Assembly: GCF_900113045.1 (NCBI RefSeq)
Contig: NZ_FONY01000007.1
Span: forward strand, 4,755 to 68,754
Direction: 5' to 3'
DNA from: Thermoflexibacter ruber
GTDB taxonomy: Bacteria; Bacteroidota; Bacteroidia; Cytophagales; Thermoflexibacteraceae
Length of the DNA: 64,000 nt
Shown here: positions 55,940 to 58,996 of the stretch, in pieces
Position numbering within the stretch: the first letter of the stretch is position 1
How the letters are laid out: the number at the start of each line of letters is the position of its first letter
Made by a program: the position numbers and the translations under genes
Notes under the pieces: generated by a model
Seen by the model: the letters and a program-made list of their open reading frames with translations, nothing else
What the model was told of the DNA's origin: nothing
Databases searched by the model: none

Positions 55940-58900
55940 ATGATAACTATTGACAAACTCCAAACCCTCGCCCAATCTTTACAGGGAGATTTTTACTATG
56001 ATACCACCATGCGTACCCTTTACGCTACTGATGCTTCTGCTTACAGAGAAATGCCCTTAGCTGTGGCTATCCCCAAATCAGAAGCAGACATTAAAAAGCT
56101 GATTCTTTTTGCCAAAGAAAACAAAACCTCCCTCATTCCAAGAACCGCAGGAACTTCCTTGGCAGGGCAAGTAGTAGGCAATGGAATCGTAGTTGATGTT
56201 TCCAAGCATTTTACTAAAATATTGGAAATCAACACAGAAGAAAAGTGGGTAAGGGTGCAACCGGGAGTTATTAGGGACGAACTAAATATGTTCCTCAAAA
56301 ACTATGGACTTTTCTTTGGACCCGAAACCTCTACTGCCAATCGGGCAATGATTGGTGGCATGGTCGGTAATAACTCATGTGGGTCAAATTCAGTAGTGTA
56401 TGGTAGTACAAGAGAGCACTTGTTAGAAGTTCGGGGCTTTTTGAGCGATGGGAGCGAGGTGGTGTTTAGTAATCTGCCCCACCCCTTACCCCTCCCCAAA
56501 GGAGAGGGGAACACCAACCAAGCGAGAGAGGAGCAAACCCCCTCCCAGAAAGGGAGGGCTGGGGTGGGGCTTGAACAGCACATCTACCAAAAAATTTACG
56601 AAATTCTCTCCAATCCAGAAAACCAAGCAGAAATCCGCAATGAATTTCCCAAGCCAAGCATAGAACGCCGAAATACAGGATATGCCCTTGACGTTTTGTT
56701 GGATAGCGAACCTTTTACAAAAAATGGTGTACCTTTCAACTTGTGTAAACTTATTGCAGGTTCAGAGGGTACACTCATGTTTATCACAGAGATTAAGTTG
56801 AATGTTGTGCCTTTGCCACCTAAGGAAAAAGGCTTACTTTGCGTGCATTTCAATAGCCTTGACGAGAGTTTGAGAGCTAATCTGATTGCGATGAAATACA
56901 AACCTTCTGCCAGTGAGTTGATAGACCACTATGTATTGGAATGTGTAGAAAACAACATAGAGCAAAAGCAAAATAGCTTTTTCGTGCAAGGAAAACCCAA
57001 AGCAATCTTGGCAGTAGAGATTTCCAAAGATACGCAGGAAGAAGTCATTAGAATAGCCCAACAAATTGAAAATGAGATGAAAGCGAAGGGCTTTGGCTAT
57101 CATTTCCCTCTGGTACTTGGTGAGGACATCAAAAAAGTATGGAACTTGCGAAAAGCAGGTTTGGGCTTGCTTTCCAATATGGTGGGAGATGCCAAACCTG
57201 TGGCAGTCATAGAAGATACTGCGGTAGATGTCAATGACTTACCCAAATACATTGCAGAATTTAATCAAATTTTGAAAAAATACGACTTGTATTGTGTGCA
57301 TTATGCCCATGCAGGTTCAGGAGAACTGCACTTGCGTCCTATCATCAACTTGAAAACAGAAGAAGGCAACCGCCTTTTTAAAACGATTGCTGATGAAATC
57401 GCTCACTTGGTAAAAAAATACAAAGGTTCTTTGAGTGGGGAGCATGGAGACGGAAGACTGAGAGGCGAATATATTAAGCTCATGATTGGGGAAAAAAATT
57501 ATGAATTGTGCAGAGAAATCAAACGAGCTTTTGACCCAGATAATATCTTCAATCCCAATAAGATAGTAGATACGCCTCCTATGAATACCAGCCTTCGCTA
57601 CCAGCCCAATCAGGAAACCCCAGACTTTAAAACTGTTCTGGACTTTTCTTCAACTTTGGGGATTCTGCGAGCAGCAGAGCAGTGCAACGGAAGTGGCGAC
57701 TGCCGAAAAACTGAACTCACAGGAGGCACGATGTGTCCCAGCTATATGGCAACTCGCAACGAAAAAGACACTACCAGAGCCAGAGCAAATATTTTGAGAG
57801 AGGCACTTTCTGGAAAATTTGACCTTAAACCTGTCAGGTCTTTAAGACCCGGCAGGTCTGAAGACAGGTCTGAACTTCAAGCCCGATTTAACAGCCAAGA
57901 AGTCAAAGAAGTCATGGACTTGTGCCTTTCTTGCAAGGGCTGTAAGTCAGAGTGTCCAAGTAACGTAGATGTAGGAAAACTCAAAGCAGAGTTTACGCAT
58001 CAATATTACCAAATAAATGGCGTGCCTTTCCGAACCCAACTTATTGGCAACTTTACCAAACTTACTTCCTTAGCTGCTTTATTTCCAAGTATTTACAACT
58101 TTGTAGTGAGTAATTCCTTTACCTCTTCGCTTTTTAAAAGTTTTACAGGTTTTGCCCCAAAAAGGTCTATTCCTTTATTAGAAAAGGAAACGCTGAAGTC
58201 TTGGTATAAAAAAAGTTATAAGTTAGGAGTTAGGAGTTATGAGTTAAAAAATAAAACTCAAAACTCAAAAAAGGTTTACCTTTTTTGTGATGAATTTACC
58301 AACTATAATGACGTAAGCATGGGCAAAAAAGCCATTCAGTTATTGGTAAAGCTGGGTTATGAAGTCGAGATTCCCTTACACTTGGAAAGTGGTAGAACTT
58401 ATTTGTCCAAAGGTTTGCTAAATGAAGCCAAAAATATCGCTATCCGCAATGTGGACTTACTGAAAAACTTGGTTTCAGCGGAAACACCTTTGATAGGTTT
58501 AGAACCTTCTGCTATTTTGACTTTCAGAGATGAATACCTTGATTTAGTGCATGACTATCAAAAAGAGGACGCTAAGAAATTAGCAAAAAATGCTCTTTTG
58601 ATAGATGAGTTTTTAGCAAAGGAAATAGACAAAGGCAACATCAGAAAAGAGCAGTTTACTGAAGAGAAAAAACTTATCAAATTGCATGGACATTGCCACC
58701 AAAAGTCTTTGGCTTCGCTTACGCCTACCAAAAAGGTACTTTCATTACCAGCTAATTACACTGTTCACCTTATTCCTTCGGGTTGCTGTGGTATGGCGGG
58801 GAGTTTTGGCTACGAAGCAGAACACTATGAAATTTCTATGAAAATAGGAGAGTTAGTCCTATTTCCTACGATTCGCCAGCAGCCCGAAGATGTAATCATT

Positions 58901-58996
58901 GCTGCCAATGGAACGAGCTGTCGCCACCAAATCAAAGACGGTACAGACAGAAAGGCTCAGCACTTGGTAGAGATACTTTGGGAGGCAGTCAAATAA
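55940..58996 (+). CDS. FAD-linked oxidase / Fe-S oxidoreductase fusion
   Basis: The 1018-residue protein fuses a GlcD/D-lactate-dehydrogenase-like FAD domain (residues 30-270: RTAGTSLAGQVVG, MIGGMVGNNSCGSNSVVYGSTREH), its C-terminal oxidase domain with SGEHGDGRLRGE, two Fe-S Cys clusters (CNGSGDCRKTELTGGTMCP and CLSCKGCKSECPSNV) and CCG-type domains near the end (HGHCHQKSL, IPSGCCGMAGSFG). It most likely oxidises a 2-hydroxy acid such as D-lactate and passes electrons through the clusters. Three short repeat sequences sit in frame inside it, in linkers at about residues 179-213, 630-648 and 757-776. All catalytic motifs remain, so the gene should be functional. Confidence 0.92.
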   Translation: MITIDKLQTLAQSLQGDFYYDTTMRTLYATDASAYREMPLAVAIPKSEADIKKLILFAKENKTSLIPRTAGTSLAGQVVGNGIVVDVSKHFTKILEINTEEKWVRVQPGVIRDELNMFLKNYGLFFGPETSTANRAMIGGMVGNNSCGSNSVVYGSTREHLLEVRGFLSDGSEVVFSNLPHPLPLPKGEGNTNQAREEQTPSQKGRAGVGLEQHIYQKIYEILSNPENQAEIRNEFPKPSIERRNTGYALDVLLDSEPFTKNGVPFNLCKLIAGSEGTLMFITEIKLNVVPLPPKEKGLLCVHFNSLDESLRANLIAMKYKPSASELIDHYVLECVENNIEQKQNSFFVQGKPKAILAVEISKDTQEEVIRIAQQIENEMKAKGFGYHFPLVLGEDIKKVWNLRKAGLGLLSNMVGDAKPVAVIEDTAVDVNDLPKYIAEFNQILKKYDLYCVHYAHAGSGELHLRPIINLKTEEGNRLFKTIADEIAHLVKKYKGSLSGEHGDGRLRGEYIKLMIGEKNYELCREIKRAFDPDNIFNPNKIVDTPPMNTSLRYQPNQETPDFKTVLDFSSTLGILRAAEQCNGSGDCRKTELTGGTMCPSYMATRNEKDTTRARANILREALSGKFDLKPVRSLRPGRSEDRSELQARFNSQEVKEVMDLCLSCKGCKSECPSNVDVGKLKAEFTHQYYQINGVPFRTQLIGNFTKLTSLAALFPSIYNFVVSNSFTSSLFKSFTGFAPKRSIPLLEKETLKSWYKKSYKLGVRSYELKNKTQNSKKVYLFCDEFTNYNDVSMGKKAIQLLVKLGYEVEIPLHLESGRTYLSKGLLNEAKNIAIRNVDLLKNLVSAETPLIGLEPSAILTFRDEYLDLVHDYQKEDAKKLAKNALLIDEFLAKEIDKGNIRKEQFTEEKKLIKLHGHCHQKSLASLTPTKKVLSLPANYTVHLIPSGCCGMAGSFGYEAEHYEISMKIGELVLFPTIRQQPEDVIIAANGTSCRHQIKDGTDRKAQHLVEILWEAVK
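56476..56570. repeat. in-frame palindromic repeat, GCCCCACCCC type
   Basis: GCCCCACCCC (56476-56485) and GGGGTGGGGC (56561-56570) are perfect inverted ends of a 95-base element with two inner hairpins (CCCCTCCCC...GGAGAGGGG and CCCTCCC...GGGAGGG). It lies within codons 179-213 of the oxidoreductase and is far more G+C-rich than its surroundings. The frame stays open through it, adding HPLPLPKGEG and QKGRAGVG to the protein. Confidence 0.85.
57829..57876. repeat. in-frame CTGTCAGGT-type palindromic repeat
   Basis: ACCTGTCAGGTCTT (starting 57829) pairs with AAGACCcGgCAGGT with two mismatches out of 14, and two more AGGTCTGAA-like units follow. The core equals the hairpin after lpdA (9675-9701). 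It adds the Arg-rich PVRSLRPGRSEDRSEL between the two Fe-S motifs. Confidence 0.8.
58211..58272. repeat. in-frame AGTTAGG-type tandem/inverted repeat
   Basis: Units AGTTATA, AGTTAGG, AGTTAGG and AGTTATG are in tandem, followed by GAGTTA and, after an A-rich loop, AAACTC twice, giving a small inverted repeat. The stretch reads KLGVRSYELKNKTQNSK in the protein, just before the CCG domain. Confidence 0.75.

Follow-up and report, generated by a model that had tools for sequence, protein, structure and literature searches.

Three linkers of a single oxidoreductase gene in Thermoflexibacter ruber are occupied by three unlike repeats, each read through in the frame of the host protein. The gene (55940–58996, plus strand) lies in a stretch of 64,000 nucleotides (contig NZ_FONY01000007.1, positions 4,755 to 68,754 of the forward strand; hereafter the window), which is part of contig C52 of the 5.5-Mb host genome (G000), and it encodes an FAD-linked oxidase/4Fe-4S/CCG-type oxidoreductase of 1018 aa. 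We propose, with a probability of roughly 0.7 for the explanation as a whole, that these linkers tolerate insertions and have been filled repeatedly by short dispersed elements, where family B (site 2) would have spread through a REP-associated tyrosine transposase (RAYT; REP, repetitive extragenic palindrome), family A (site 1) would be the nuclease-less form of an element carrying a DUF559 domain, and family C (site 3) would be a heptamer repeat. The copies that survive would be those that are free of stop codons in the host frame and preserve that frame, presumably since the enzyme still works.

Three repeats lie in frame within one gene

The open reading frame (ORF) begins with ATG, holds 1018 codons for amino acids and is open from end to end. 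Its product matches the Pfam families FAD_binding_4 (residues 39–175), FAD-oxidase_C (294–542) and Fer4_17 (581–677); the best NCBIfam model is a YdiJ-type D-2-hydroxyglutarate dehydrogenase (653.9 bits, under the cut-off of 1350), followed by GlcD/GlpC-type models, none of which reaches its own cut-off. The CCG part of the label is taken from an earlier sequence-only reading of the window, together with the GlpC-like NCBIfam matches. That reading had placed three repeats within the gene with the frame left intact, and the ORF call as well as the match counts in window and genome bear it out.

At site 1 (56476–56570, plus strand, as are all features of the gene), family A is a G+C-rich composite palindrome translated as LPHPLPLPKGEG...QTPSQKGRAGVG, with a 5' arm made of the foot GCCCCACCCC and a hairpin (56476–56512) and a 3' arm made of a hairpin and the GGGGTGGGGC foot (56538–56574). 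Site 2 (57829–57876), which falls within the Fer4_17 match between the two Cys motifs, holds a REP-like CCTGTCAGGT hairpin of family B in an altered form with an extra partial arm, translated as PVRSLRPGRSEDRS. At site 3 (58211–58272), family C consists of AGTTAGG/AGTTATG heptads followed by inverted AACTCAA units. Within the window, the A core matches once and the heptad array twice with overlap (mean 0.00 in dinucleotide shuffles for both), and CCTGTCAGGTCT matches 11 times at up to 2 mismatches, against 2.58 in dinucleotide shuffles and 8 in the largest. The sequence-only reading took the repeats for interspersed families, and further copies of A and B are indeed abundant in the host genome: 19 matches to the A core and 24 places with a full B hairpin at up to 3 mismatches, with none for either reversed-pattern control. 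The B 10-mer matches 42 times (control 8), and the heptads of C 54 times, with overlaps (control 0).

The same linkers are filled differently in close relatives

An orthologue search of 59 genomes, including its own, returned a match at E ≤ 0.001 in 53, weak partial paralogues counted in, and the 30 best-match loci including the window gene were aligned, 27 of them from outside the genus. Site 1 spans 33 aa in G000, 18 in G001 and 45 in G002, against a median of 17 (11–31) in the 27 orthologues outside the genus. Site 2 spans 26 aa in G000 and 20–26 across the three congeners G000, G001 and G002, against a median of 9 (9–18) in those 27, where it is 9 aa in 25, 10 in L109 and 18 in G005, a genome of another genus. 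Sites 1 and 2 of G000 are clear length gains. Site 3 spans 26, 58 and 34 aa in G000, G001 and G002, respectively, and a median of 20 (14–46) outside the genus. The segments are missing from most aligned orthologues and, viewed as peptides, A and B are absent at sites 1 and 2 from the aligned orthologues of other taxonomic families, with one exception (L090), whose longer site 1 is possibly related to A; the sequence-only reading had named their presence in distant species as what would speak against insertion.

The host genes of G000, G001 and G002 are about 80% identical pairwise at the DNA level. At site 1, the outer arms of A are recognisable in all three, with most of the centre absent in G001 and, in G002, an altered 3' end and a second hairpin (TTGTCAGTG...CACTGACAA) nested within A. 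Site 2 holds a B hairpin in G001, where it is clean, and in G000, where it is longer and altered; in G002 a G+C-rich element takes its place. Site 3 of G001 is occupied by two other hairpins and heptad-like units. With different repeats at sites 1 to 3 in the three genomes, the filling of these linkers has diverged between close relatives. In G005, peptides that we judge at the protein level to be A-like stand at sites 1 and 3. The suggestion that the gene tolerates insertions or that the locus is a target holds in so far as its linkers are reused by other families in congeners; the gene is not unique in this, and A copies are also found in MetH, AcsA, methylmalonyl-CoA mutase and Type ISP genes.

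Family B accompanies a RAYT-type frame

On contig C77 of G000, three B clusters lie inside about 7 kb. Two of these border an open frame of 205 codons (L126, 8276–8887) with HUH (NHFH) and YIHYNP motifs, one on each side at a distance of up to about 60 bases. A Pfam search with Y1_Tnp (PF01797) did not list this frame. B is best read as the REP of this RAYT-type frame in the same genome: like the REPs of REPtrons, it is a short, imperfect, dispersed palindrome, mostly extragenic and bordering a Y1/HUH RAYT-type frame on either side. It differs from them in that some copies lie in frame inside genes and that the C77 frame has no ordinary start codon. B would then be a non-autonomous hairpin that owes its spread, whether formerly or elsewhere, to a C77-like RAYT. 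We compared the motifs with those given in PMC6006769, which describes a RAYT subclass, 2.6, as mostly from Bacteroidetes and flanked by atypical secondary structures; the NHFH and YIHYNP of the C77 frame do not exactly fit the motifs printed there.

Across the 13 genomes of the taxonomic family, a query of six aligned RAYTs matched in 9. Hairpins sharing an 8-mer occur on both sides at 18 of the 24 RAYT loci first inspected and at 5 of 11 added ones (35 loci in total, two of the 11 being one place). The 8-bp stem of the hairpin that is nested in site 1 of G002 and present in site 3 of G001 is the stem found beside a RAYT at G001:C15. As side observations, up to 11 RAYT matches occur in one genome (G005), and many of the family's RAYT loci (L133, L134, L136, L224–L258) have a hairpin of their own on both sides.

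Of 32 B hairpins, covering 16 of the 24 places in G000, 25 lie outside ORFs of at least 200 aa and 7 inside, examples being methylmalonyl-CoA mutase, restriction methylases and a protein that we take to be CHAT-like. Two further core matches in ORFs, in genes presumed to be HisS-like and alanine-racemase-like, look like chance. Two neighbouring paralogous restriction methylases (L132; G000:C41, 21687 and 23661) carry the hairpin at the same place, directly before DLIVGNPPYV, complete in one and 6 residues shorter within the hairpin in the other.

Family C is a mostly intergenic heptamer

Family C is inside an ORF at only 1 of 16 places inspected, that one being the window gene; the rest are intergenic, several of them, by eye, shortly upstream of start codons. 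As a case of insertion it is weaker than A and B, with little net gain in length, and as a heptamer repeat it would probably have spread through slippage and recombination. TAACTGA heptamers are reported from Beggiatoaceae, Cyanobacteria and five Bacteroidetes in PMC4679880. By comparison with that account, C is likewise a heptad array with copies before start codons; its unit AGTTAKG is TAACTCA-like, one base off, and one array is intragenic. That three unrelated families share one gene, as the sequence-only reading held, stands in that the repeats are distinct, and they are not equivalent: B is REP-like and near a RAYT-type frame, A mostly intragenic, and C a mostly intergenic heptamer.

Family A is frequent inside genes

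With A counted as clustered sites, 43 of 66 in G000, G001, G002 and G005 fall in ORFs of at least 200 aa with at least 30 aa on both sides (10/19, 7/12, 9/14 and 17/21, respectively), against 7 of 32 for B (Fisher p = 8e-5, the copies not being independent). The 43 include the window gene three times (G000, G001, G002) and MetH twice; G002:C295 stands outside these counts, and one at L194:1138 in a 679-aa frame is counted as outside by the ORF rule. For G000 alone, the shares are 10/19 for A and 3/16 for B (p = 0.08). Pfam domains are present in all ten repeat-bearing proteins scanned, nine with A and one with B, among them MetH, a GTPase that we take to be of the CysN kind, acetyl-CoA synthetase (two copies), a hybrid histidine kinase, a cytochrome c assembly protein and a Type ISP enzyme. 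A second linker with two families is found in methylmalonyl-CoA mutase (presumably IcmF), where G002 has A and G000 has B in proteins that are 79% identical. Codon phases of the 43 in-gene copies are uneven (21/3/19; chi-square p = 0.001 against uniform, with copies not independent), phase 1 being rare although contexts are open about as often in it. The idea that A is free of stops in all six frames proved only partly true, with 55–71 of 88 contexts open per frame.

Beyond the family, searching species genomes for the A core returned at least 119 stretches, among those listed mostly from Bacteroidota and also from Alphaproteobacteria, Thermaceae, Chloroflexi and others. Among the listed stretches, 46 of 113 tested sites lie in ORFs of at least 200 aa (35 of 66 where the stretch is below 50% G+C), some of them long forms and 15 edge sites being omitted. 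Such sites lie, for instance, in a class I tRNA synthetase from Flavobacterium sp. RSP15, which we take to be IleRS, and in the LeuRS from an Ignavibacteria genome.

The parallel with Rickettsia palindromic elements (RPEs) drawn in the sequence-only reading holds in behaviour, as A too is an in-frame palindrome in unrelated genes. RPEs are described as in frame in Rickettsia (PMC10969869), and intragenic REPs are known as well, with two Xanthomonas species carrying different REPs at about the same recB site (PMC3733652); the window gene likewise holds different palindromes at one linker in congeners. A differs from these intragenic REPs and RPEs in its occurrence in Bacteroidota and in having arms in common with a nuclease-coding form.

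Three side observations concern A copies. A CysN-like GTPase gene of G002 (L193, G002:C54; 1285 and 1719) carries an A palindrome and a TTGTCAGTG hairpin, two families as in the window gene. In G005 (L185, G005:C34), one 1085-aa frame overlaps four A-like cores at up to 4 mismatches, two of them at up to 3, one of which is inside by the ORF rule. At L014, L015 and L017 (G000:C28, C47 and C67), A cores are enclosed by a larger palindrome whose ends are TTCTTGCGAAAGT-like and ACTTTCGCAAGAA, nested and possibly similar to miniature inverted-repeat transposable elements (MITEs).

DUF559 lies between arms of family A in the frame of several conserved proteins

In MetH, a tRNA synthetase, an Lhr helicase and a Type ISP enzyme, DUF559 (PF04480) is located between A arms with the host frame kept, and Pfam places the domain within MetH, class I tRNA synthetase, LeuRS, methylmalonyl-CoA mutase, Lhr and Type ISP proteins. 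DUF559 is often found in Vsr-like PD-(D/E)XK endonucleases, as stated in PMC12907096, and its consensus retains the D...E.D residues expected of such nucleases, which would make these residues candidates for a catalytic role. Within the taxonomic family, 4 of the 13 genomes have DUF559, all four among the 7 with A. The congener G002 has it inside LeuRS with A hairpins on both sides, and G005 inside MetH, in the same linker as the short palindrome of G000 and G001.

At the scale of the phylum, 221 of 395 genomes contain DUF559; among 150 matches listed, 48 are in frames of at least 350 aa, 2 in frames of 250–349 aa and 100 in shorter ones, all measured from stop to stop. Embedded sites recur, with 9 loci in MetH between the cap and B12 domains, 6 in the LeuRS editing domain, 3 at a second LeuRS site, 4 in HsdR, 3 in Type ISP, 2 in IleRS and 2 in methylmalonyl-CoA mutase, as well as others; some of these loci are close relatives and the events are fewer than the loci. 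Host gene names without a Pfam call are our presumption. The loci that share one linker are L314, L409, L411, L417, L419, L427, L432, L433 and L438 for MetH, and L393, L335, L402, L405, L426 and L444 for LeuRS; their in-frame DUF559 is possibly a non-splicing homing element.

To compare flanks, we used 61 DUF559 loci (the 30 best, 20 long-frame stretches out of 23 such rows without a locus, and 11 earlier ones), a non-random choice for which the 46 embedded loci are not a rate. G+C-rich hairpins were found at 52 of 92 flanks of embedded DUF559 in a relaxed test, against 49 of 873 control windows (5.6%). At least one of the window's A arms matches above the controls' 99th percentile in 46 of the 61 loci, with order and orientation the same, and the 5' arm does so at the upstream flank in 39. 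Short A copies and the arm-DUF559-arm arrangement occupy the same linker in different genomes in MetH, LeuRS, Type ISP and methylmalonyl-CoA mutase, the shared MetH linker being a second site, before IMVSGTITD. In one alignment of a short LeuRS copy with the solved chain 1h3n_A, the latter has 8 residues fewer at this place. A candidate short copy in a RecB-like gene (L361) holds DUF559 too and was excluded from these pairs.

In our reading, A is what a homing-like element looks like without its nuclease, an element that stays in frame and apparently does not splice. Its full form would be a 5' palindromic arm, a DUF559 nuclease and a 3' palindromic arm in frame with the host protein. In the probable scheme, the nuclease would cut the empty linker site of a conserved gene, repair would copy the A/DUF559 element into the cut, and a later internal deletion would leave only the arms, as in the window gene. 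The reverse order, with the arms first and the nuclease captured later, may instead apply. The resemblance to known homing elements (inteins and intron-encoded endonucleases) lies in a nuclease gene found at recurring places within conserved genes, in linkers that also occur with forms lacking the nuclease. Among nine host proteins that carry DUF559 or A, Pfam identified no intein family, a result obtained without a search for splicing motifs. PMC11855218 describes the ShiLan insertion, which has an out-of-frame HNH gene; DUF559 is instead in the host's own frame between palindromic arms.

Weighing the proposed model against alternatives

Several results weigh against the model as proposed. 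The gain of G000 at site 3 is small (about 6 aa), with a linker of equal or greater length in 3 of the 27 orthologues from other genera. The window's B copy has more than 3 mismatches to the full hairpin and is hence outside the 24 places, and the C77 RAYT-type frame offers no ATG, GTG or TTG upstream of codon 63, a position beyond the HUH motif, which renders present RAYT activity doubtful; this frame may be broken, by a lost start or a frameshift, or may use an unusual start codon. For family A, a DUF559 segment is absent from site 1 throughout the alignment of 30 orthologues, nor was the domain found in the host genome or in the A-bearing G001 (62% complete) and G003, so that the window's A copy is at most a derivative; the association of DUF559 with A across genomes (4/7 with A against 0/6 without, p = 0.07) is only suggestive. 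The window's 3' arm matches downstream flanks above the controls' 99th percentile in only 16 of the 61 DUF559 loci, the relaxed hairpin test detects no arm at 12 of 46 embedded and 3 of 15 standalone loci, and a strict test detects arms at 17 of 47. In methylmalonyl-CoA mutase, short A and B lie about 10 residues away from the DUF559 site, and the sharing of host sites between short and long forms may in part reflect vertical inheritance.

In a rival view, A and B are both ordinary REP- or MITE-like repeats moved by known or unknown transposases, the DUF559 genes having landed in, or targeting, pre-existing G+C-rich palindromes. This is in line with the association of B with a RAYT, with intragenic REPs being already on record (PMC3733652), with the nested palindromes at site 1 of G002, and with G008, where A matches 18 times and DUF559 only partially. 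We nonetheless regard it as rather unlikely, given that none of the 35 RAYT loci from the taxonomic family, two of which coincide, holds an A-like core, that a RAYT match occurs in none of the 119 A stretches listed and is absent from G008, and that the arms around DUF559, where found, have a fixed order and orientation. RAYT as the mover of A, tried as a candidate, is likewise left unsupported by these RAYT loci and stretches and by G008.

An origin of the repeats in place, through slippage and recombination in unconstrained linkers and without any insertion, would account for the wide range of site 3 lengths among the 27 orthologues outside the genus, for the 6-residue difference within the B hairpin of the C41 methylase paralogues, and for the G+C-rich site 1 of G001, which at 18 aa is about the outgroup median of 17. 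It is improbable for the set of repeats as a whole in view of the many dispersed copies of A and of the full B hairpin, with control counts of 0 in the same genome, and of a site 2 that is almost uniformly 9 aa outside the genus; as an account of C alone, it stays open. Selection on the segments as functional RNA hairpins or protein segments could find a hint in the uneven codon phases of A, with the non-independence of copies noted above, and is very improbable: one linker holds different families in congeners, sites 1 and 2 are short in most aligned orthologues, and Rfam gives no match at the gathering threshold within the window. The model of tolerant linkers refilled by short elements is the one that we retain.

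Implications

In-frame REPs and RPEs are already known, and so are, for Bacteroidetes, RAYTs with atypical hairpins. In searches of an open-access library with few preprints and few subscription papers, we found no report of DUF559 between palindromic arms in housekeeping genes. We lean, if modestly, towards a broader proposal where A would belong to a class of homing elements found across the phylum, read in frame and apparently not spliced, with a Vsr-like DUF559 between palindromic arms. These elements would enter recurrent linkers of MetH, LeuRS and other tRNA synthetases, methylmalonyl-CoA mutase, helicases and restriction enzymes and would leave nuclease-free palindromes, whether scars or non-autonomous copies, as linkers of many Bacteroidota proteins. 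Were the link between A and DUF559 true, a domain of unknown function would be the likely engine of a selfish element in essential genes, one that lives without a splicing machine and is tolerated through read-through and linker position. It would also account for G+C-rich insertions in many Bacteroidota enzymes (with peptides such as TPSPLGRVGVG and NSLPFGEGWGG) and would provide countable insertion histories for testing how proteins take up new segments. The window gene itself shows clearly that, in sister species, the same linkers can be occupied by several unrelated elements.

Finally, when the ORFs of the window were compared with stretches of G001, G002 and G005, only a few matched besides the host gene. 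Isolated matches of 29–49 aa to the C-terminus of the oxidoreductase occur at G002:C370, G006:C1 and C27, G008:C369, G009:C152 and G046:C56, mostly in very short open frames that may represent contig ends, remnants or small genes.

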